From Prevotella amnii DSM 23384 = JCM 14753 (GTDB lineage Bacteria; Bacteroidota; Bacteroidia; Bacteroidales; Bacteroidaceae), in assembly GCF_000378745.1 (NCBI RefSeq), contig NZ_KB905275.1, positions 1 through 64,000 of the forward strand: a stretch of DNA of 64,000 nt. The letters are read 5' to 3'. The position numbers and the translations under genes were made by a program. This document shows positions 16,128-26,601 of the stretch, piece after piece (the stretch's first letter is position 1; each line of letters begins with the position of its first letter). Below the pieces are notes generated by a model that had not been told where the DNA came from, searched no databases, and saw only the letters and a list, made by a program, of their open reading frames with translations.

Positions 16128-17789
16128 TTATTTATACAAGTAGCGTTTAATAGATTTCTTTGGCGTTTTTTGAAATTCTTCTTCGCGTATTTCGAATTCA
16201 GCAACTTTACAGTAAGCTGGCATTAGCGAGTTAAGTTGTACTTTGTTTTCTTCCATTTGTTTGTTGATATCTTCTTTTGTTAAGCCTAAGTTAGCAGCCT
16301 CTTCATAGTCGGGATATATTAATCCGATTAATTTTTGATCACGTTGTACTATTAAGCATTCTGAAACGAGGTAGAGGGAACTAAGAGTATCTTCTATTTC
16401 TTCAGGATATATATTCTGACCATTACTACCTAAAAGCATATTTTTAGAACGTCCACGAATAAATACATTCCCATCGGCATCCATTGTTCCTAAATCACCA
16501 GAATGATACCAACCATTTTTATCCAAAGTTTGTGCAGTAGCTTCTTCGTTTTTATAATAACCTAACATAACGTTAGGACCCTTTGTAAGTATTTCACCAG
16601 CTATATTTTCAGGATCAGAACTATCTATTCTTACTTGCTGATGGTAAGCAGCTTGTCCACAAGAACCTTTTACAAAAGTTTTCCAATCACGATAACATAT
16701 AATAGGTGCACATTCTGTAGCGCCATAACCTACGGTATAAGGAAAATTAATTTGGTGTAGAAAGTCTTCTACTTCTTTACTTATAGCAGCACCACCTATT
16801 ATGATTTCATAAAGATTACCACCAAAGGCATTATATACTTCTTCACGTATTTTTTCCTTTACTTTCTTACTAAGCAAAGGTAGTTTTAATAAAAATTGCA
16901 TTTTAGTGTTTTGTATTTTAGGGAAGACCTTTTTGCGTATGATCTTCTCTATGACAAGAGGTACTGCAATCATTATTATGGGCTTTATATCATGTAGGGC
17001 TTGAGAGATAATTGCAGGTGAAGGCATGCGAGTAAGGAAAAAGACATGTACACCTGATAGAAATTCAAAAAGAAACTCAAAAGACATACCATACATATGA
17101 GCTAAAGGTAATATACTAATAATGTTATCACCAGTTGTAACATGATTGTTCATTACATGTTTAGCAAAATCAGTATTACTCCATAAAGCACGATAAGGTA
17201 GCATTACTCCTTTAGAGTGCCCTGTTGTTCCGCTAGTATAATTAATCAAAGCTAACTCTTCAGGACTTTGTTCCTTATAATAATGTATGTGTTCTGAACG
17301 AAAATATTTAGGATACTTATTACCAAACATTTCATTAAGGTGCTCACGTGCGTAAGTGAGCTTATCAGTTCTGCTTATAACAATAGAGTAGTCAGGAATA
17401 TAGATGACACCTTCTAAACTTGGCATTTGTACAGCATCGATTTGAGTTGCAACAACGTCGCCAACAAAGAGAAGTTTTGCTTCGGAATGGTTTACTATAT
17501 GATGTATTTGCTCTGGAGTAAACTCATGGAGAATAGGAACAGCTACTGCACCATAAGTAAGTATGGCAAGAAAAGCTGAAGCCCAAGCTGCAGAATTACG
17601 CCCACATAGAGCAATCTTATCACCTTTTTGTATGCCACTTGCTTCAAACATAATATGAAGCTTTTCTATTTTTCTTGCTACATCGTGATAGCGTAAGGTT
17701 TTTCCTTTATAATCTGTAAGAGCATCAAGATCCCAATGATCAATTATAGCCTTTTCTATTAGCTCGTTAAAACTTGGAATATTCTCCAT
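16128..17789 (-). CDS. Long-chain fatty-acid-CoA ligase family protein (AMP-forming)
   Basis: The protein has 553 residues and belongs to the ANL adenylating superfamily: it activates a fatty acid with ATP to an acyl-AMP and passes it to CoA or an acyl carrier. The P-loop-like motif is INYTSGTTGHSKGVMLPYRA (residues about 183-202). GYGATECAPIICYRD is the adenine-binding motif, and GWYHSGDLGTMDADGNVFIRGRSKNMLLG gives the hinge and the ribose-binding Asp. The C-terminal lysine region reads FQKTPKKSIKRYLY, with the catalytic Lys near the end. It has no signal or membrane segment. It is a single gene with its own promoter, transcribed away from the restriction island. Chain-length preference is not predictable. 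Confidence 0.87.
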   Translation of the reverse strand: MENIPSFNELIEKAIIDHWDLDALTDYKGKTLRYHDVARKIEKLHIMFEASGIQKGDKIALCGRNSAAWASAFLAILTYGAVAVPILHEFTPEQIHHIVNHSEAKLLFVGDVVATQIDAVQMPSLEGVIYIPDYSIVISRTDKLTYAREHLNEMFGNKYPKYFRSEHIHYYKEQSPEELALINYTSGTTGHSKGVMLPYRALWSNTDFAKHVMNNHVTTGDNIISILPLAHMYGMSFEFLFEFLSGVHVFFLTRMPSPAIISQALHDIKPIIMIAVPLVIEKIIRKKVFPKIQNTKMQFLLKLPLLSKKVKEKIREEVYNAFGGNLYEIIIGGAAISKEVEDFLHQINFPYTVGYGATECAPIICYRDWKTFVKGSCGQAAYHQQVRIDSSDPENIAGEILTKGPNVMLGYYKNEEATAQTLDKNGWYHSGDLGTMDADGNVFIRGRSKNMLLGSNGQNIYPEEIEDTLSSLYLVSECLIVQRDQKLIGLIYPDYEEAANLGLTKEDINKQMEENKVQLNSLMPAYCKVAEFEIREEEFQKTPKKSIKRYLYK

Positions 17790-17924
17790 TATAATATATG
17801 CATTAGGGTTAATTATGCAGAGTTTTACCTTATGTCAGAACAAAGCTAATTAATATTCTGAGAGGGATTTACTCTTTTGATAAAATATTTAATAAAATTA
17901 TTATGCAAAATTATTGTTTTCGTG

Positions 17925-17955
17925 CAAAGGTAGTGTATTTTTTGCACAAAGCAAA
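17925..17955 (-). promoter_or_regulatory. Full Bacteroidetes promoter of the acyl-CoA ligase gene
   Basis: On the minus strand, TTTG (17955-17952) is followed after 19 bases by TACCTTTG (17932-17925). Both boxes and the spacing fit the -33/-7 consensus. The leader to the ATG at 17789 is about 130 bases. Confidence 0.75.
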
Positions 17956-17983
17956 AAAAGATGTGCAATAAATGGAACTTGCA

Positions 17984-18239
17984 TACACCTTAGACCGATG
18001 ATTGAGTCGATTACAGATGATAATGTGGAGTCAAATTGCTCCATGACCCGAAAATAATCCCCCAAAAGGAGTGAGTCTCTCAGATTTAATTTGTATCTTC
18101 GCCATGTCTATCGTCAGATTCTCTTTTTTTTTTGCACCACTAAGATAAGTGAAAATTCTGACATGGCAAGCTTCTGAGCAACTTTTTGTTGCTCAGGTAT
18201 TTAAAAAGTTTAATTTGTAATAGTGTAGCAGAATTAAGG
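17984..18239 (+). repeat. Direct repeat copy 1 flanking the restriction-modification island
   Basis: This unit of about 256 bases recurs at 23862-24121. Positions 18002-18125 are identical to 23882-24005, and the rest differs by scattered substitutions and a few indels. Inside are a promoter-like box (TATCTTCG, 18095-18102, one mismatch to TAnnTTTG), an inverted pair GCCATGTC (18101-18108) / GACATGGC (18160-18167), a T10 run, and a perfect 9-bp hairpin at 18174-18196 with a TTTTT loop. It ends directly at the methyltransferase ATG (18240), so it acts as that gene's leader. No gene lies in the repeat. Confidence 0.9.
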
Positions 18240-19739
18240 ATGAGCAAAAAAAAAACATATATTTCCCTTTTTAGCAGTGCTGGTGTTGGTTGCTATGGCT
18301 TTAAAATGAATGATTTTGATTGTATAGCAACTAACGAATTGCTAGATGTTAGGCTTAATGTCCAAAAAGCAAATCACAAGTGCAAATATGGATCTGGCTA
18401 TATTGGCGGTGACATCACTTCTAAAGAAACACACGCAAAGCTCTTTGATGAGATTGAAATGTGGAAAGGAAAAGAGGGGTTAGAACAAGTTGATGTAGTC
18501 TTTGCAACTCCTCCTTGTCAAGGAATGTCAACGGCGAACTACAAGAAGACAGAAGATGAACAAGTGAGAAATTCGCTTGTTGTCCAGGCTATCAAACTTA
18601 TTTCTCAAATACAACCTAAGATATTCATCTTTGAAAATGTTCGTGCTTTTATGAAGACAATATGCACGGATACAGATGGTACAGACAAGCCCATAAGCGA
18701 AAGCATATTTTGTAATTTGGCTGACAGGTACAACATCTTCTATAGGGTTATCAATTTCAAAGATTATGGTGTGCCATCAAGCAGACCTAGGACAATTGTA
18801 ATAGGCACTAGTAAGGAGTGTCCGAATTTATCCCCTCTATCTTTGTTTCCGTCAAGACACAGGGAGATAAAACTGAGAGAGGCTATCGGTGATTTAGCCT
18901 CCTTAGGCTATTGTCAAAAAGACGTTTCTGACTATCTGCATTTTGCCAGACCTTTCCCTAAAGAACAACTAAGTTGGATAATAAATATTAAGGAAGGGCA
19001 AAGTGCCTTTGACCAACCTGTAGAGTTACAGCCTGGTCATATTGACGAACACGGGAATAAGGTGGTCAACAAGGGTGCATATATGGGTAATAAATATCGT
19101 AGACTTGTATGGGACAAAGTATGCTCTTGTATACATACAAGGAATGATGTGTTGTCAAGTCAAGATACAATACACCCTGTAGATAACAGAGTGTTGAGCA
19201 TTAGAGAACTGATGAGAGTAATGACTATACCCAGTTCGTTTCATTGGACAGATTATGATGATTCTGTCACAATGGAGAATGCAGATGAATACCTCAAAGC
19301 TAATGAGTTGAATATTCGTAGATGCATTGGAGAGGCTGTACCTACTCAGATAATGAGAAATGTAGCCTCAAAAATTAAGCTTGCTTTAGAAATGGGTGAT
19401 AAGAATCAAGAAGATTTCTTTATTAATGTAAAAGAACTTGAGGTAAAAGGTGAATCTGTACGAATAAAAGCCAAAGATGCTAACACCCTATTGGATTACT
19501 TACCCCAAATTGTTGGCTTGCTATCTGACAAAACTAAGTTGGAGATACATTGTATTGATTTCTTAACTACAGAGATAGAATCAATAAAGGAAAAAGCTAT
19601 AATGTGGGACTTGGCAGATTATGTAAAGATAGTTGATGCTAGTTCAAAACAGCAATCTCAAAATAATTATCAGTTGTTACTAGCTGATGGTAAACTTTCT
19701 ACTTATAACGCAATTCAGCAACTTTCATTCTTCGACTAA
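18240..19739 (+). CDS. DNA (cytosine-5) methyltransferase
   Basis: This 499-residue m5C methyltransferase transfers methyl from SAM to cytosine in a specific DNA site. Motif I is LFSSAGVGCYGF, motif IV PPCQG with catalytic C93, motif VI FENVRAF with E133, motif VIII PSSRPRTIVIG and motif X GEAVPTQIMRNVA. About 110 residues follow motif X, more than usual, and look like an extra C-terminal domain of unknown role. The ATG at 18240 is chosen because the conserved protein starts there; an upstream TTG at 18186 lies inside the repeat hairpin. Codons 3 to 5 lie in a run of ten A's (18246-18255), a possible slippage switch. Its stop overlaps the next ATG by one base, so it is coupled to the fusion protein and probably protects self DNA for it. 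Confidence 0.92.
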   Translation: MSKKKTYISLFSSAGVGCYGFKMNDFDCIATNELLDVRLNVQKANHKCKYGSGYIGGDITSKETHAKLFDEIEMWKGKEGLEQVDVVFATPPCQGMSTANYKKTEDEQVRNSLVVQAIKLISQIQPKIFIFENVRAFMKTICTDTDGTDKPISESIFCNLADRYNIFYRVINFKDYGVPSSRPRTIVIGTSKECPNLSPLSLFPSRHREIKLREAIGDLASLGYCQKDVSDYLHFARPFPKEQLSWIINIKEGQSAFDQPVELQPGHIDEHGNKVVNKGAYMGNKYRRLVWDKVCSCIHTRNDVLSSQDTIHPVDNRVLSIRELMRVMTIPSSFHWTDYDDSVTMENADEYLKANELNIRRCIGEAVPTQIMRNVASKIKLALEMGDKNQEDFFINVKELEVKGESVRIKAKDANTLLDYLPQIVGLLSDKTKLEIHCIDFLTTEIESIKEKAIMWDLADYVKIVDASSKQQSQNNYQLLLADGKLSTYNAIQQLSFFD

Positions 19740-22700
19740 TGAATACGAACATAGATACAACCATACTAGATGGATTGATTGTGGGTAGAGTAGACCCTCA
19801 CATCTATGCTTTCTCCACTGGAACTGTCCCAAACTATCTCAAAGTAGGGGACACTTATAGACCTGTCAATGTACGTCTGAATGAGTGGAGAGTTCATTTT
19901 AAGGATTTAGTTCCTTTGTATGAGCATATAGCCAAAGTAGACAATGGTAATATCTTTAGGGATTACTCTGTACATTACTTTCTAGAACACGATAAAAAGT
20001 TCAAAAGATTAGAGCAAGGCACTTTTGTACTTGAGTATTTTTCAAAGGAGTTCTTTAAGGATGCAACAACTAGTGATGTAGATGAAGCCATTGCTGATAT
20101 ATGTCGTAGTGCTAGAGAAAATGATGGGAAATACAAATTGTACTCTCCTGATTTTCTCCCCATAGTATATAAGTTTGAACGTGAGGAAAAGCCTTGGTGT
20201 TTAAGACCTAATCAACAAGAAGCAGTATACAATTTTAAGGAAGCCGTTGATAACAAACACAGGACTAATTTACTTATGTATGCAGTAATGAGATTTGGTA
20301 AATCCTTTACTGCTATGAGTTGTGCTGTGGAAATGAAAGCAAAATTTGTGGTGGTTGTTTCTGCTAAGGCTGATGTTAAGTTAGAATGGCAAAAGACAGT
20401 AGAGATACCTGCAAACTTTAAGGGTTACTCTTTTATTGACTCTTCTGCATTGCTTGTAAATCCAGAGGTTATAACACAGGCATTAGCTAAGGGAGAAAAC
20501 ATAGTGTTGTTTTTAACCCTTCAAGACCTTCAAGGAACTGAGGTGAAGGAAAAACACAAGGATGTATTCGCCAATAACATAGACCTGCTCATTGTTGACG
20601 AAACTCATTACGGAGCCAGAGGAGAAGAGTATGGAAAGATACTAAGAAATAGTAAACTCACGAAAGCTCAGATTTTAAAAGAGATGGAAGGAAGTGAGAC
20701 CTCAGATGATTTTGACAACAATGAAAATATCAAAGGGCTGAACTATAAAGTGCAGTTACATCTCTCGGGTACTCCATATCGTATTTTAATGAATGATGAG
20801 GAGTTTGCCAAGGATGACATAATAGCATTCTGTCAATTTACCGATATAGTTAACGAGCAAAGGAGGTGGGACTATGAACATCTATCAGATGATAATGTAA
20901 AGGAGTGGGATAATCCTTATTATGGTTTTCCTCAAATGATACGCTTTGCATTTAACCCTAACGAATCCTCAAGAAGACTATTGGAGAAATTAAGGAAAAA
21001 TGGGGTAACATATGCTTTCTCAGAGTTGTTTAAACCCCAATCCACAACAAAAGACAGGGCAGAAAAATATAAGGAGTTTGTCTATAGAAAAGAGATACTT
21101 GACTTATTGCAAATCATTGATGGCTCTAAACAAGAGGAGAATTTACTAGGTTTCTTGGACTATGATAAAATTAAGGATGGACAAATGTGCAGACATATAG
21201 TTTGTGTGTTGCCCTTTAGAGCATCTTGTGATGCAATGGCAGCACTAATCAAGTCCAACAAAAGACAATTCCAAAATCTCAGTAAATATGAGATAATCAA
21301 TATTGCAGGAGTTGAAGATGAATATGACAGTGCAGGTGCAGTAATAGCCAAGATTAAAGAATGCGAGGAGACAGGTAAAAAGACTCTGACCTTGACTGTA
21401 AACAAAATGCTCACTGGCAGTACAGTAGAGCAATGGGACACTATGCTCTATCTAAAGGACACCGCTTCTCCTCAAGAGTACGACCAAGCCATATTTAGAA
21501 TACAAAACCAATACATCAAGATCTATAAGGATGAAGAGGGTAATGAGGTAAAATATAATATGAAGCCTCAAACTCTACTTGTGGACTTTGACCCAAACAG
21601 AATGTTTAGGCTACAAGAGTTGAAATCTCAGTTTTACAATGTTAATGTAGAGAAGAATGGCAATCTAAAACTAGAGCAGCGCATCAAGGAAGAGCTGCAA
21701 ATTTCTCCGATTATAGTCTTAAACAACAATAAAATCAAGGAGGTTACACCTGCTAATATCCTTGATGCAGTTCGCGAGTACTCAAAATCAAAGAGTGTGT
21801 TGGAGGAGGCTATAGATATTCCTTTTGACACTTCCCTTCTTAATGACCCGATATTAAAAGAGGAAATTGAGAAGATGAAAGAGATTGATGCTAGCAAAGG
21901 ACTTGAGTTTAAGCCCCTTGAAGATGGAGAAGATGATATAGACCTACCAACATCAAGCGAAACATCTGACTCTAATTCAAAAGATGAACTAGAGACGGAT
22001 AATGAAGACAACGGCAAAGACAACAAAAAAGAGTCAACAGAACAAGAAATTCTTAAGTCTTTGGAAAAGAAACTATCGGCTTATTACTCAAAAATACTCT
22101 TTTTTGCTTTCTTGACTAATTCCCGAATTATGTCTCTTGAACAAGTGATAAATAGTATAAATGAGGAAGATGACAATAAGAGAATATCTCGTAATCTAGG
22201 ATTAAGAGTAGGCATACTCAGACTCATACAAGCAAAGTGCAATCCATTTGTACTAAGTAAACTTGATTTTAAGATACAAAACATCAACTCGCTGATGCAA
22301 GACACCTCTCTACAACCACTAGAGAGAGCAAAAATTGCTATAAAGAAATTTACAAGAATATCAGACTCAGAGGTAGTAACCCCCAAGTATGTTGCTGATG
22401 AATTGGTATCATTCTTACCCACAACTGAAATTAATGGTAAAACAAAATTCTTGGATATAGCATCCAAGCAGGGTGAACTGGCAATATCATTATATGAAAC
22501 ATACAACAATATACCAGAAATCAAAAACAACGTATACTCACTACCAACATCCCACCTTACCTATGAGTTGACTCGTAAAATATATGAAATCTTGGGTATG
22601 CCTGTAGAGAATGTTCTAAAGGGATATTTTTCCGCTGATTTCATTAATGGTAAAGAGGAGATGGTGTGTTTCATAAATCAGTTGCAGGCTGATGTTATTA

Positions 22701-23677
22701 TTGGTGGACCTCCATTCAACACAAATGATGGAGGAGGAAGAGGAGACTCTGCCAGTGCTCTGTATCATCAATATGTGCAAGTTGCAAAGGGCTATAATCC
22801 ACAGTACATTTCTATGTATATGAAGGCTGTGTGGTATTCTGGAGGCAAAGGACAGGGCTTGAATGAGTTTCGTCAAGAGATGTTGGATGATACAAGAATC
22901 TCTGTTTTCTCTGATTATCCAGATCCAAAAGAGTGTCACATTCAGGGGATTAATTTAAGAGGCGGTGTTTGTGCTTTTCTTTGGGATGCACAATATCATG
23001 GTTCTTGTAACTTTATAAGCCATATCAATGGGAAAGTATACAAAGATAAGAGGCTGTTAAGGGCATCTGGTGAGAATATACTTATAAGATACACCCAAGG
23101 ATTGAGCATTCTAGAGAAGGTAAAGTCTTTTAATGAAAAAATGTATAGCGAATATGTTTCAAACAGAGATCCCTTTGGCTTAGGTGATAGCTTTAAAGCA
23201 TATAAATCAAATCCTTCGGATACACATAGTGTGCGCTTATATTGTGTAAGAAAAGAGATAGGATATATAAGACCTAGCCAGTTAGATAAGGCATATCTGC
23301 CACTAAGCAACAAGTGGAAGGTTTTGGTGGCAAAAGCCAGTCCTGGTGAGGACACATTGCCACATTCTATCATCAGCGCCCCAATTATATCAGAACCTAA
23401 ATCTGTATGTACAAATGGATTGTTTGTGGTTAGAACCCTAAAAACAAAAAAGGAGGCTCAAAACCTTATTGATTATATGCATACAAGTTTCTTTAGGTTT
23501 ATGATGCTATTGGCAAAGAATGGGCATAACTTGACCAACAATGTGTATAGGTATGTCCCAGTAGTAGACCTATCTCAGAAATGGACTGATGCAAAGTTGT
23601 TCAAACGATATGGCATCACTAAGTCAGAACAAGACTTTATCAAGAGTGTTATCAAAGATATAAGGCTGGTTCTATAA
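19739..23677 (+). CDS. GIY-YIG-like nuclease / SF2 helicase / N6-adenine methyltransferase fusion (restriction-modification enzyme)
   Basis: This single 1312-residue chain carries several activities. Residues about 18-110 resemble a T5orf172-type GIY-YIG nuclease: HIYAFSTG at 21-28, YLKVGDT at 33-39, then R46. The helicase follows with Walker A MRFGKS (184-189), DETH box at 287-290, SGTP at 343-346 and the motif VI arginine region QAIFRIQ at 583-589. An acidic Asp/Glu/Ser-rich linker spans about 720-770. The methyltransferase has motif I FLDIASKQGE (D906) and motif IV GGPPFN (989-994), the latter in place of the usual NPPY/F. The last 300 residues are probably target recognition. The layout resembles type ISP/IIG single-chain restriction enzymes but with a different nuclease and a partner m5C methyltransferase. 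Cleavage is inferred; the nuclease assignment is the weakest part. Confidence 0.85.
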   Translation: MNTNIDTTILDGLIVGRVDPHIYAFSTGTVPNYLKVGDTYRPVNVRLNEWRVHFKDLVPLYEHIAKVDNGNIFRDYSVHYFLEHDKKFKRLEQGTFVLEYFSKEFFKDATTSDVDEAIADICRSARENDGKYKLYSPDFLPIVYKFEREEKPWCLRPNQQEAVYNFKEAVDNKHRTNLLMYAVMRFGKSFTAMSCAVEMKAKFVVVVSAKADVKLEWQKTVEIPANFKGYSFIDSSALLVNPEVITQALAKGENIVLFLTLQDLQGTEVKEKHKDVFANNIDLLIVDETHYGARGEEYGKILRNSKLTKAQILKEMEGSETSDDFDNNENIKGLNYKVQLHLSGTPYRILMNDEEFAKDDIIAFCQFTDIVNEQRRWDYEHLSDDNVKEWDNPYYGFPQMIRFAFNPNESSRRLLEKLRKNGVTYAFSELFKPQSTTKDRAEKYKEFVYRKEILDLLQIIDGSKQEENLLGFLDYDKIKDGQMCRHIVCVLPFRASCDAMAALIKSNKRQFQNLSKYEIINIAGVEDEYDSAGAVIAKIKECEETGKKTLTLTVNKMLTGSTVEQWDTMLYLKDTASPQEYDQAIFRIQNQYIKIYKDEEGNEVKYNMKPQTLLVDFDPNRMFRLQELKSQFYNVNVEKNGNLKLEQRIKEELQISPIIVLNNNKIKEVTPANILDAVREYSKSKSVLEEAIDIPFDTSLLNDPILKEEIEKMKEIDASKGLEFKPLEDGEDDIDLPTSSETSDSNSKDELETDNEDNGKDNKKESTEQEILKSLEKKLSAYYSKILFFAFLTNSRIMSLEQVINSINEEDDNKRISRNLGLRVGILRLIQAKCNPFVLSKLDFKIQNINSLMQDTSLQPLERAKIAIKKFTRISDSEVVTPKYVADELVSFLPTTEINGKTKFLDIASKQGELAISLYETYNNIPEIKNNVYSLPTSHLTYELTRKIYEILGMPVENVLKGYFSADFINGKEEMVCFINQLQADVIIGGPPFNTNDGGGRGDSASALYHQYVQVAKGYNPQYISMYMKAVWYSGGKGQGLNEFRQEMLDDTRISVFSDYPDPKECHIQGINLRGGVCAFLWDAQYHGSCNFISHINGKVYKDKRLLRASGENILIRYTQGLSILEKVKSFNEKMYSEYVSNRDPFGLGDSFKAYKSNPSDTHSVRLYCVRKEIGYIRPSQLDKAYLPLSNKWKVLVAKASPGEDTLPHSIISAPIISEPKSVCTNGLFVVRTLKTKKEAQNLIDYMHTSFFRFMMLLAKNGHNLTNNVYRYVPVVDLSQKWTDAKLFKRYGITKSEQDFIKSVIKDIRLVL

Positions 23678-23861
23678 ATTACCACCGCACATAGTCATTA
23701 AATGTTTATGAAATATGTTTTGTTATCTTTTGGCTTCTTTTTATATAAAACAGGCTGCGCCTCAACAATTCAAACAAGTTTGATTGCATTCGGCTTGCTC
23801 CGTTTTTGGTTCAAAATATAAGTTCGTTCAGTCGTGTAGTTCGCTACACTCCTTCACTCTC
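23678..23861. other. Gap behind the restriction enzyme, with a TTCG-loop hairpin
   Basis: No gene is visible. A GC-richer segment at about 23750-23815 contains a small dyad (caaac / gtttg) and the phrase ggctgcgcctcaacaa, which looks like an intergenic element common in Bacteroidales genomes. At 23834-23849 there is a perfect 6-bp stem, GTGTAG / CTACAC, with a TTCG loop but no T run. Nothing equivalent precedes repeat copy 1, so this segment belongs to the island side. Confidence 0.45.
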
Positions 23862-24121
23862 TACACCTTAGACCGAGGGTGTTGAGTCGATTACAGATGA
23901 TAATGTGGAGTCAAATTGCTCCATGACCCGAAAATAATCCCCCAAAAGGAGTGAGTCTCTCAGATTTAATTTGTATCTTCGCCATGTCTATCGTCAGATT
24001 CTCTTGTTTTTTTTTGCAACACTAAGATAAGTGAAAAATCTGACATGGCAAAATCTTGGACAACTTTTTGTTGTTCAAGTATTTAAAAAGTTTAATTTAT
24101 AATAGTGTTGCGGACTTAAGG
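23862..24121 (+). repeat. Direct repeat copy 2 flanking the restriction-modification island
   Basis: This is the second copy of the unit at 17984-18239, in the same orientation. It keeps the promoter-like box, the GCCATGTC/GACATGGC dyad, and the hairpin just before the end. Here the hairpin reads CTTGGACAAC / GTTGTTCAAG, so a G-C pair of copy 1 has become A-T on both arms, a compensatory change. It ends 46 bases before the DUF4494 gene, which it probably serves as leader. Confidence 0.9.
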
Positions 24122-24167
24122 TAAAGGAGATAATTTTTCTGAATAACTGAACAAAAGAAATAAAATA

Positions 24168-24635
24168 ATGAGGATAAGAACAGCGAAATGGTTTGAGATA
24201 AGAGTGAGATATGATAAGACTATGGAAGATGGTCAAAATAAGAAAGTAATAGAGCAGTATGTGGTAGATGCTTATACATTTTCAGAAGCAGAAGCTGAAA
24301 TAACAAAGGAAATGTCTCATTATATCAGTGGTGAGTTTGAGATAAAAGCTATTACCCCAGCTATTTACAGTGAAGTGTTTTTTTGTGATAGTGATAATGC
24401 TGATAAATGGTTTAAAGCAAAGATAGCATTTATAACGCTTGATGAAAAAACAGAAAAAGAGAAACGTATTATTTCTACACGTCTTGTTCAAGCAGGAAGT
24501 GTTAATGGTGCAGTGAAGAATGTAGAAGATGTTATGAACGGAGGGCTATCAGACTATTCTATAGTATCAATTACAGAAACTAAGATTATGGATGTTTTTG
24601 AGCATCAGAATATAAGTAATATATCAGAATCGTAA
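24168..24635 (+). CDS. DUF4494 family protein
   Basis: The 155-residue soluble protein, without signal or membrane segment, matches the Bacteroidetes-restricted DUF4494 family. Features are the opening RTAKWFEIRVRYDKT, the block YVVDAYTFSEAEAEITKEM, and the pair WFKAKIAFITLDEK and STRLVQAGSVNGAVKN. The two halves look alike: each pairs a strand-rich segment with an alpha segment carrying an acidic or amphipathic helix, which suggests a duplicated small fold. No function is known. It is followed 34 bases later by yggS; to my knowledge this pairing is common in Bacteroidales, so a link to vitamin B6 homeostasis is possible but unproven. Its leader is repeat copy 2. Confidence 0.8.
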   Translation: MRIRTAKWFEIRVRYDKTMEDGQNKKVIEQYVVDAYTFSEAEAEITKEMSHYISGEFEIKAITPAIYSEVFFCDSDNADKWFKAKIAFITLDEKTEKEKRIISTRLVQAGSVNGAVKNVEDVMNGGLSDYSIVSITETKIMDVFEHQNISNISES

Positions 24636-24669
24636 TTTAACGAATAGCACTATTTTTAGAAAGAGGAGT

Positions 24670-25341
24670 ATGTATGATGTAGTAGACAATTTACATAGCG
24701 TACTAAGGGAACTGCCTAATGGTGTTAAACTAATAGCTGTAAGTAAGTATCACCCTATAGAATATATAGAGGCAGCATACGCTGAAGGACAACGCGCTTT
24801 TGGAGAAAGCTTAGTGCAGGAGCTATCTAAAAAAGTAACGTCTTTGCCTAAAGATATAGAGTGGCATTTTATAGGTCATTTGCAAACTAATAAGGTAAAA
24901 TATATAGTACCTTATATATCAATGATAGAAGCTGTCGATTCGGTCAAACTTCTTCGTGAAATAGAAAAGCAAGCATCTAAGTATAATCGTGTAATAAATG
25001 TTTTGTTAGAGCTTCATATAGCAAAAGAAGAAAGTAAATATGGTTTTTCTTTTGAGGATTGTAGAGCTTTTATTGATAGTGGCGAATGGAGAAACATGTC
25101 TCATGTATGTATTTCAGGCTTAATGATGATGGCTTCTAATGTATCAGATAAGGAACAAGTACGAAAAGAAATGTTATCTGCATCTATATTTTTTGATGAA
25201 ATAAAAAAGAAATATTTTTCGGATAAGGCATCTTTTAAGGAACGTTCATGGGGAATGAGTCAAGATTATGATGTTGCTGTGAGCTGTAATTCAACGATGG
25301 TGCGTATAGGAACAAAGATTTTTGGTCCTCGTTTATATTAA
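24670..25341 (+). CDS. yggS: YggS/PLPBP-family pyridoxal phosphate homeostasis protein
   Basis: This 223-residue single-domain TIM barrel binds pyridoxal 5'-phosphate without known enzymatic activity and helps keep free PLP and amino-acid pools balanced. The PLP lysine is K26 in LIAVSKYHP. Further family blocks are RAFGESLVQELSKK, IEWHFIGHLQTNK, and SWGMSQDYDVAVSCNSTMVRIGTKIFG, which holds the phosphate-binding loop. The start ATG at 24670 is preceded by AAGAGGAG, an unusually good Shine-Dalgarno sequence for this genome. It is co-oriented with and close to the DUF4494 gene, so it is probably in one transcript with it. Confidence 0.93.
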   Translation: MYDVVDNLHSVLRELPNGVKLIAVSKYHPIEYIEAAYAEGQRAFGESLVQELSKKVTSLPKDIEWHFIGHLQTNKVKYIVPYISMIEAVDSVKLLREIEKQASKYNRVINVLLELHIAKEESKYGFSFEDCRAFIDSGEWRNMSHVCISGLMMMASNVSDKEQVRKEMLSASIFFDEIKKKYFSDKASFKERSWGMSQDYDVAVSCNSTMVRIGTKIFGPRLY

Positions 25342-25399
25342 ATGTAATATAGGTAAATTTTATTTTTAAGTGTCCATAGTAAATATTATAAAAATATAT

Positions 25400-25407
25400 T
25401 ATCTTTG
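25400..25407 (+). promoter_or_regulatory. -7 promoter element of the Rep_3-like gene
   Basis: tatctttg is a perfect TAnnTTTG box 24 bases before the start codon, which gives a leader of only about 18 bases. Confidence 0.6.
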
Positions 25408-25431: not shown

Positions 25432-26601
25432 ATGGTAAAGACAAAGGACGCAAGTAGTAGTGGCAAGACATCTACAAAGAAGCCAGTAACAAAAAAGAGA
25501 GGTGCTAAAGCTAAGAAAGCACCTATAAAACGTACTATATCAGATGCTCTTATTCCTATAAAGGATGAGACATGGCTTATACAGCCCATTGCAGTAACGA
25601 TGATGCGTTATGATTATTCGCTTATTCAGGTGCGAATACTTGTTTCTATAGTTGAAAATTTACAAGCTATTTTACTTGGTATTTTAAATAATAAGCAGAG
25701 TGCACAGCTTGATCTGTTTCAGACAAAAGAATTAGATGAAGATGGACGTATGCCTATTAAATTGCCTTTTAAAGAATTAGGTGTTGATCCGAATCATTAT
25801 CCAGAGCTTCGCACATCTTTAAAAATGTTAGCGTCTTTACCTGTAGAAATTCCTTATAAGACTTCAGAAGGTAGGAAATATACCAAATATACTAACCTTT
25901 GTGATGTTTATATTCCTCAAGATCGTTCATATAATAAGTATGCTATTTTAAAGCTTAATCGTGCAGTTGCAGAGCGGTTGGTATCTTTAGATTTAGGTTA
26001 TCATCGTTTAGGAAAGCAGATAGTTTTTGCTTGTAAGAATAAATACACTCAGCGTATTTATATGTTTATAGAGTCATGGGTTAATAAAGGGCGTACAGTT
26101 ATAAAAACAATAGACTTTCGTAAGATGCTTCGTTTAGAAGATAATTATAAGAAGTTTTCTGATTTTTGTCGTCGCGTTCTTGAGCCTGCTATGGCAGAGC
26201 TTAAAGATATGGCAGCTAAGGGATATTGTGATTGTTACTTTGAATATGAAAAGAAATATGATCATGGTCAGCGTGGAGGAGAGCCTGATGAGCTTATTTT
26301 TACTATATTTAAGGCAAATAATAATGTATCAGAGCAATTGGAAGCTATGTCGGAAGCTCAGCGTAGCCAGTTTAAATCAATGCTATTGAAATATTTTGAA
26401 TTTGATGCTGAGCGTGCGCAACAGCTTGCTCTTCGTATAAATGCAGAATCATATCAAGAGGTTATTAGTAAGCTAATTGATCTTCGTGAGCGTTTTCGTA
26501 ATACATATATAAAAGATAAAGCAGCTTATACTTATAAAAGTTTAGATGAATTGTTAAAGCAAAAAGAAAGTGTAGCCTCTGAAGCTGTTGTAGTAGAATA
26601 A
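25432..26601 (+). CDS. Chromosomal Rep_3/RepB-type replication initiator family protein
   Basis: This protein has 389 residues. A Lys/Ser/Thr/Ala-rich tail (residues 1-40) precedes two winged-helix-like domains of the Rep_3 plasmid initiator superfamily. The first starts with TWLIQPIAVTMMRYDYSLIQ, and the second includes the region LGYHRLGKQIVFACKNKYTQRIYMFIESW and FRKMLRLEDNYKKFSDFCRRVLEPAM. Plasmid relatives bind iterons and open the origin. Here no iterons, partition genes or transfer genes are nearby and the neighbours are core genes. It therefore looks like the conserved chromosomal copy known from Bacteroidales, with unknown duty. The basic N-terminal tail suggests DNA or RNA binding. 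A C-terminal helix-rich extension follows residue 300. Confidence 0.8.
   Translation: MVKTKDASSSGKTSTKKPVTKKRGAKAKKAPIKRTISDALIPIKDETWLIQPIAVTMMRYDYSLIQVRILVSIVENLQAILLGILNNKQSAQLDLFQTKELDEDGRMPIKLPFKELGVDPNHYPELRTSLKMLASLPVEIPYKTSEGRKYTKYTNLCDVYIPQDRSYNKYAILKLNRAVAERLVSLDLGYHRLGKQIVFACKNKYTQRIYMFIESWVNKGRTVIKTIDFRKMLRLEDNYKKFSDFCRRVLEPAMAELKDMAAKGYCDCYFEYEKKYDHGQRGGEPDELIFTIFKANNNVSEQLEAMSEAQRSQFKSMLLKYFEFDAERAQQLALRINAESYQEVISKLIDLRERFRNTYIKDKAAYTYKSLDELLKQKESVASEAVVVE

Follow-up and report, generated by a model that had tools for sequence, protein, structure and literature searches.

Linkage of restriction-modification (R-M) genes to chromosomal IS copies has been obtained experimentally with PaeR7I, some products having a direct IS repeat at either side of the R-M pair, and the paper anticipates that a locus built in this way could amplify or move (PMC3031569). 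An R-M pair flanked by near-identical sequences of 152 and 155 bp is described in a protist mitochondrion (PMC8099122), and complete outward promoters have been confirmed experimentally in the IS1380 family (PMC9330008). On the side of the enzymes, CglI and NgoAVII, as presented in PMC4267653, combine an m5C modification with a helicase-dependent nuclease, the nuclease (PLD) with a B3 domain and the helicase being separate proteins.

The locus described here lies in the window, which is the whole stretch of 64,000 nucleotides that was analysed, and is best filed as an IS-linked R-M locus of the PaeR7I kind in which IS1380 right ends are the repeats. Direct IS repeats, both of them truncated copies, stand on the two sides of the R-M genes. 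The systems compared in PMC3031569 involve IS1 or IS5 and were tested at the bench, whereas the window holds an IS1380-family element, of which only right ends of about 257 bp are left, and a MITE remnant at one junction, and is known from its sequence. The acquisition of R-M genes in linkage with an IS is a known and ordinary kind of arrangement; it is the enzyme pair itself that shows an unusual change. The features are the following.

16128..17789, minus strand: fadD-like AMP-binding acyl-CoA ligase (PF00501), left flank.
17984..18239, plus strand: repeat copy 1, which holds positions 1338-1594 of an ISBf12-like IS of the IS1380 family, a truncated right end; its tip TTAAGG ends at 18239.
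18240..19739, plus strand: m5C DNA methyltransferase of 499 aa with a PPCQG motif (PF00145, 2.1e-37; PADLOC MTase_II); the homologues in genomes G351 and G140 align from residues 5 and 1.
19739..23677, plus strand: restriction fusion of 1312 aa with a T5orf172/GIY-YIG-like N-terminus, an SF2-helicase region and an Eco57I-type methyltransferase fold (ResIII and Eco57I matches).
23664..23861, plus strand: remnant of the MITE E2 with TIR GGCTGGTTCTATAAATTA, broken off at about position 133 of 193 and carrying an insert of about 60-65 bp.
23862..24121, plus strand: repeat copy 2, which holds positions 1336-1594 of that IS (the two bases 23860-23861 included), again a truncated right end; its tip ends at 24121.
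24168..24635, plus strand: DUF4494 gene (PF14902), right flank.
24670..25341, plus strand: yggS-like gene (Ala_racemase_N, PF01168), right flank.

The repeats are direct and 92% identical (17984-18239 against 23862-24121, E 2e-104), with 99% identity between 18002-18133 and 23882-24013 and 124 consecutive identical bases (18002-18125 and 23882-24005), a similarity that is far above chance. The earlier note had recognised two direct repeats of about 257 bp with this identical run, and between them an m5C methyltransferase and a 1312-residue restriction fusion; the alignment bears out the former, and the open reading frames with their domain matches the latter. It had also taken each repeat for the leader of the gene that follows, and this does not hold: the repeats are right ends of an IS1380-family element that occur at unrelated sites, and the supposed leaders are solo IS right ends. 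Each consists of the noncoding end of the IS and the first 40 or so transposase codons on the minus strand, which run out of frame after about 19 codons; the left end of the IS is missing from both, so that neither is complete, and both have the same orientation. The statement that no transposase or integrase lies inside is right insofar as no complete gene of this kind is found among the open reading frames between the repeats, but each repeat holds the minus-strand start of an IS1380 transposase gene.

A search of the same genome for the repeat, which the earlier note had called for, finds three more copies that it had missed. One of them belongs to a complete IS of 1594 bp (G000:C26:2372-3965), with TTTAA on both sides and ends CCTCAAATCCGCAACTAAGC and CCTTAATTCCGCAACACTAT that match as inverted repeats at 13 of 20 positions. 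Its transposase scores 342.6 bits with the IS1380-family model NF033539 against a cut-off of 180 (L006:2543-3829), and reads inwards from the right end that bears the repeat; the other copies, on contigs C49 and C38, are further remnants. Among plasmid records, three from Bacteroides match the entire repeat at 94.2% identity, two annotated there as ISBf12 and one unannotated, and records annotated as IS613 or IS612 match it at 82.6-83.3%. The right end is thus like that of ISBf12 and of the IS612/IS613 group, IS1380-family elements of Bacteroides, from which the window copies differ as solo ends without the left inverted repeat or a complete transposase.

We considered whether the 256-bp unit could be an independent mobile mini-element, for which a pseudo-end, CCTTAGACC, near its inner boundary looked suggestive, and rejected this: no target duplication is found at either copy, and the inner breaks of other IS copies are scattered (1324 twice, 1330, 1334, 1336, 1347, 1348, 1362, 1363, 1380, 1382, 1383 and 1241 twice, leaving out 1240 in L348, which is a contig end), with a mild and unexplained cluster at 1330-1338. 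A riboswitch-like RNA leader was dropped because the IS end folds as expected of a palindromic IS end (z -1.7 to -5.8 over five folds) and because Rfam gives just four chance-level matches in 17500-24700, below their gathering scores, and no match within the IS. Its right end (e.g. L006:3846-3965, window 24002-24121) forms a long palindrome, with z -5.8 in the full IS, and the inner hairpin of copy 2 stays paired (by eye), with two changes compensated on the opposite strand of the stem and one G-U pair. In most rows of the genus survey of IS ends, two candidates were scored per genome. An inside-out remnant lies in G010:C3 (L177:2803-3812), where two ends of this IS, one right and one left and about 257 bp each, face each other around a 147-aa open reading frame.

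The two copies in the window do not differ evenly along their length. The alignment of IS ends, whose input of 36 records is smaller than the genus survey, kept 33 copies (at least 196 bp, 85% identity, reaching the tip), which become 28 after removal of identical sequences, 26 of them in addition to the window pair; gapped columns were excluded from the difference counts, and of the 325 other pairs 249 could be compared at more than 100 positions in each part. The window pair shows 0 differences in 124 inner positions and 14 in 114 tip positions (Fisher p 2e-5). The 249 other pairs show the opposite tendency, with a mean of 13.6 differences in the inner part and 7.8 in the tip part, and the smallest inner count among the 85 of them with at least 10 tip differences is 2. 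This mosaic suggests gene conversion or a crossover within the inner tract as its simplest reading, although collapsed assembly could mimic it, the genome being a draft of 77 contigs. Two independent IS insertions without later exchange are made less likely by the 124-bp identical tract. The variant GACCCG, common to both window copies, is found in G255:C30 as well, so that the kinship of the copies rests mainly on this tract. The direct repeats bound the R-M pair, and the earlier proposal that one crossover between them would remove it is supported. The mosaic likewise makes the repeats look mutually recombined; no other cassette was seen between two copies at this site.

The surroundings were compared with those in relatives, including Prevotella and Segatella species, with one genome per species. 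In a first set of 25 loci, 11 have the order DUF4494 / aspC-permease-fadD (ten with a further fadD copy, G010 with one), L089 and L209 have DUF4494 / aspC-permease with no fadD in reach, in L198 and L199 aspC lies beyond yggS, G017 has permease-fadD without aspC, seven have DUF4494 without aspC, permease or fadD, and L088 and L092 lack DUF4494. Of 80 named fadD loci forming a second set, 24 contain DUF4494, all with aspC and permease (20 as yggS-DUF4494 / aspC-permease-fadD, four in other orders), and the other 56 have no DUF4494 within the stretch compared. The window itself retains 83% identity to the region upstream of fadD in G010 (17898-17972), and the aspC-permease genes of this genome, 80% identical to those of G010, are found on C27 (L088:6720-9271) beside polysaccharide genes, a place that gives no IS match. 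The IS end is absent (blastn, E 1e-5) from the 105 loci, 47 of which have DUF4494 (23 and 24 from the two sets); near yggS in G010 there are only 68-70% matches to a different IS1380 element. The comparison of gene orders, with aspC-permease next to DUF4494 in most of the relatives examined, points to a site between fadD and DUF4494 that is remodelled in this lineage. In G003 and G026 fadD lies 80 kb or more from DUF4494, and 7 of the 25 loci have DUF4494 without aspC, permease or fadD; rearrangement of the region is thus not confined to this lineage, which makes the sequence of events at the present site uncertain. That the R-M pair is foreign to the site, as first proposed, is supported in the relatives examined. 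The idea of an ancestral chromosome with a single repeat copy between fadD and DUF4494 finds no support, with the IS end in 0 of the 47 loci bearing DUF4494, and comparison of the locus among relatives revealed no other cassette between two repeat copies. In the right flank, a gene for a Rep_3-type replication initiator lies between yggS and fabD (25432-26601); it has no match in the relatives' loci compared, which mostly stop short of the fabD region.

The two IS tips stand immediately before genes. Tip 1 abuts the ATG of the methyltransferase (18239|18240) and tip 2 ends 46 bp before that of DUF4494. In G351 and G140 a TATCTTTG box starts 35 bp before the ATG of the homologous methyltransferase (by eye), and in G010 DUF4494 has upstream of it a TACTTTTG box, the G010-type promoter of that gene; both boxes are absent from these places in the window. 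Since the tips occupy the place of the relatives' promoters, an outward IS promoter probably drives both the methyltransferase and the DUF4494 operons, and promoter capture by the IS ends may be inferred. The candidate outward boxes are each one base off TAnnTTTG (TATCTTCG in both copies, TAGTGTTG in copy 2 only), and matches this imperfect count against the promoter part of our explanation. A similar placement is known from a B. xylanisolvens plasmid (NZ_CP072214), one of the three records with 94.2% identity, in which a tip like those of the window lies 50 bp before the cargo gene ermF. In the present genome, on C49 (L007:9432 and below), a third right-end tip lies 21 bp before the start codon of a long open reading frame, listed as 1217 aa from an earlier TTG, and could be a further case of promoter capture.

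We consider it likely, from the arrangement of the IS ends and the state of the site in relatives, that the R-M pair joined the site in the company of a common Bacteroidales IS, of the IS1380 family and ISBf12-like. IS copies near the R-M donor and near DUF4494 would have offered the homology for a recombination, or for an IS-linked co-integration, that brought the R-M genes to the site, and later deletions would have removed the left ends of the IS. The outward promoter of each tip would then drive the methyltransferase and DUF4494 operons, and recombination between the two ends could still excise the R-M genes as a circle of 5.88 kb, leaving one IS end before DUF4494. The cut of both copies at nearly the same IS position (1338 and 1336) is not predicted by independent deletions; it is unexplained and counts against this course of events. 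A misjoin at the 124-bp repeat may also have occurred in the 77-contig draft. Target duplications are absent (by eye) both around each single copy and around the complete unit, whose outer flanks are TTGCA and TAAAG, so that no transposition step is shown. The GC3 of the R-M pair is 0.33-0.35, and eight of the nine neighbours measured lie at 0.20-0.24, with one at 0.36, a contrast that fits acquired DNA weakly. If correct, the explanation implies that what look like common leaders around a defence cassette can be IS ends, and that an IS remnant which recombines may have two effects, assisting the arrival of an R-M pair and giving the neighbouring DUF4494-yggS operon a different promoter.

Other origins would leave a comparable layout. 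The shared orientation and tip of the copies, their nearly common inner boundary and the position of the R-M genes between them would be accounted for if an IS remnant between fadD and DUF4494 had been the target of an R-M insertion and had been duplicated by it, a mechanism cited for R-M systems (PMC3031569); five alignment columns shared by the pair, in which it differs from the majority of the 26 other copies (one being found in none of the 26), point the same way. Such a long target duplication nevertheless appears unlikely to us. The target it needs, a single IS end, is found in 0 of the 47 DUF4494-bearing loci; copy 2 adjoins the MITE and not the end of the R-M genes itself; and with 14/114 tip and 0/124 inner differences the copies do not look equally old along their length, although a later conversion could also cause this.

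Transposition by the IS, with two copies or a single one moving the R-M genes as a composite or one-ended transposon, has precedents in the IS1380 members ISEcp1 and ISPme1, which mobilise neighbouring DNA (PMC9330008), and in the discussion of R-M genes between direct IS repeats as a composite transposon (PMC3031569). We hold it to be improbable here, both left ends and nearly all of the transposase being gone and no target duplication of the kind left by a composite transposon being visible around the unit; moreover, the cargo lies beside the 5' end of the transposase gene, while the DNA mobilised by ISPme1 is described beside the 3' end (PMC9330008). As for the exchange of alternative cassettes at a promoter or leader shared by the copies, which the earlier note proposed, the repeats do stand at leader positions and seem to have recombined with each other, yet they are IS ends that occur at unrelated sites, and the relatives examined have neither the repeat nor an alternative cassette between repeats at this site, which makes the idea very improbable. 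We thus retain the recombination or co-integration of IS-linked R-M genes as the preferred origin.

As to the enzymes, the fusion matches the type IIG family model REase_MTase_IIG of PADLOC (PDLC03626) with 1138 bits over residues 8-970, and is to this extent like a type IIG REase-MTase fusion. It is unlike one in that the Asn of motif IV is replaced and a separate m5C methyltransferase gene lies upstream. Indeed, motif IV of the fused methyltransferase is degenerate, reading GGPPF (residues 989-993, window 22703-22717) instead of an intact NPPY/F. It is established for enzymes of this kind that m6A transfer is abolished by loss of the motif-IV Asn. The motif was read in 18 full-length fusions from the genus search and in two more; the partial fusions L112 and L113, which end before it, and the weaker genus matches beyond L123 were left out. 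It is GGPPF or GVPPF in 3 of the 20, those of the window, G351 and G140 (loci including L095 and L096), and NPPY in all 17 others, as it is in ten shorter relatives (L114-L123). The same three are the only ones among the 20 whose fusion adjoins an m5C methyltransferase gene. Upstream of the 17 NPPY fusions, no m5C gene or PPCQ-type motif is found in a flank of up to 1.5 kb (about 0.9 kb in L110), the one PPCS match, in L100, lying in a frame broken by a stop. The three fusions form one clade (support 100/100), and the trio is therefore best taken as a single evolutionary event and not three.

The N-terminus of the fusion is conserved, with 31 invariant columns in 18 sequences including that of the window; Lys35, Gly37 and Asp38 in its GIY-YIG-like region are invariant. 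T5orf172 is a member of the GIY-YIG superfamily; it is matched by 7 of these 18 N-termini (best 2.6e-6), the window's own giving no match. Comparison with solved structures returned four matches only, with E 0.45-1 and unrelated names, and structure prediction of two window fragments reached a pLDDT of 35 (single-sequence) and 33, too low for the models to be used. The helicase motifs are conserved across the 11 fusions compared. The pair resembles CglI and NgoAVII (PMC4267653) in joining m5C modification to a putative helicase-dependent nuclease; in place of the separate proteins of those systems it has a single chain, GIY-YIG-like at the N-terminus and with an MTase fold at the C-terminus. 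In the literature, mainly open-access papers, we found no description of an m5C gene combined with a fusion of degenerate motif IV. We tentatively put forward, as a possibility that we would not yet favour over its negation, that the R-M pair could belong to a clade of restriction enzymes not described before, single chains with a helicase whose built-in adenine methyltransferase would by now serve as a DNA-recognition module, the separate m5C methyltransferase having taken over the marking of self DNA; the window pair would have lost its own promoter, would use that of the captured IS1380 right end and could be released as a circle by way of both ends. With the linked loss of the motif-IV Asn, a switch of the protecting mark from adenine to cytosine within one family of restriction enzymes becomes open to test.

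The same R-M cassette was sought at other locations and was not found in the contig, plasmid, genus or phage searches. A scan of the fusion against genome contigs and viral contigs, which detects close relatives only, returned nothing; its plasmid relatives, in 76 records of which 15 span 80% or more of the query, are all below 60% identity; and megablast of 17700-25400 against phages gave two small records covering 6% and 3% of the query. Some match to the fusion at E <= 0.001 is present in 123 of the 398 genomes of the genus searched, where the full-length fusions other than that of the window reach at most 54% identity and the contig-edge fragments in G067 and G034 56-58%.

Finally, the region between the repeats contains the MITE remnant at 23664-23861, which the earlier note, otherwise correct about the genes there, had missed. 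The restriction gene takes its stop and its four final codons (RLVL) from this remnant, and homologues of the gene have other ends. The remnant is cut off at 23861, and at the join it has a TCT in common with IS copy 2 (by eye). Intact E2 copies of 193 bp, with an 18-bp TIR and the TSD TTAA and TATA, are found in C10 of the same genome (G000:C10:73598-73716) and in G010 (G010:C3:808061-808179), and G029 contains 49 matching pieces; the element thus has the TIRs, target duplication and several copies of a MITE, the copy in the window being truncated. The insert of about 60-65 bp in the window MITE has weaker matches in other genomes.
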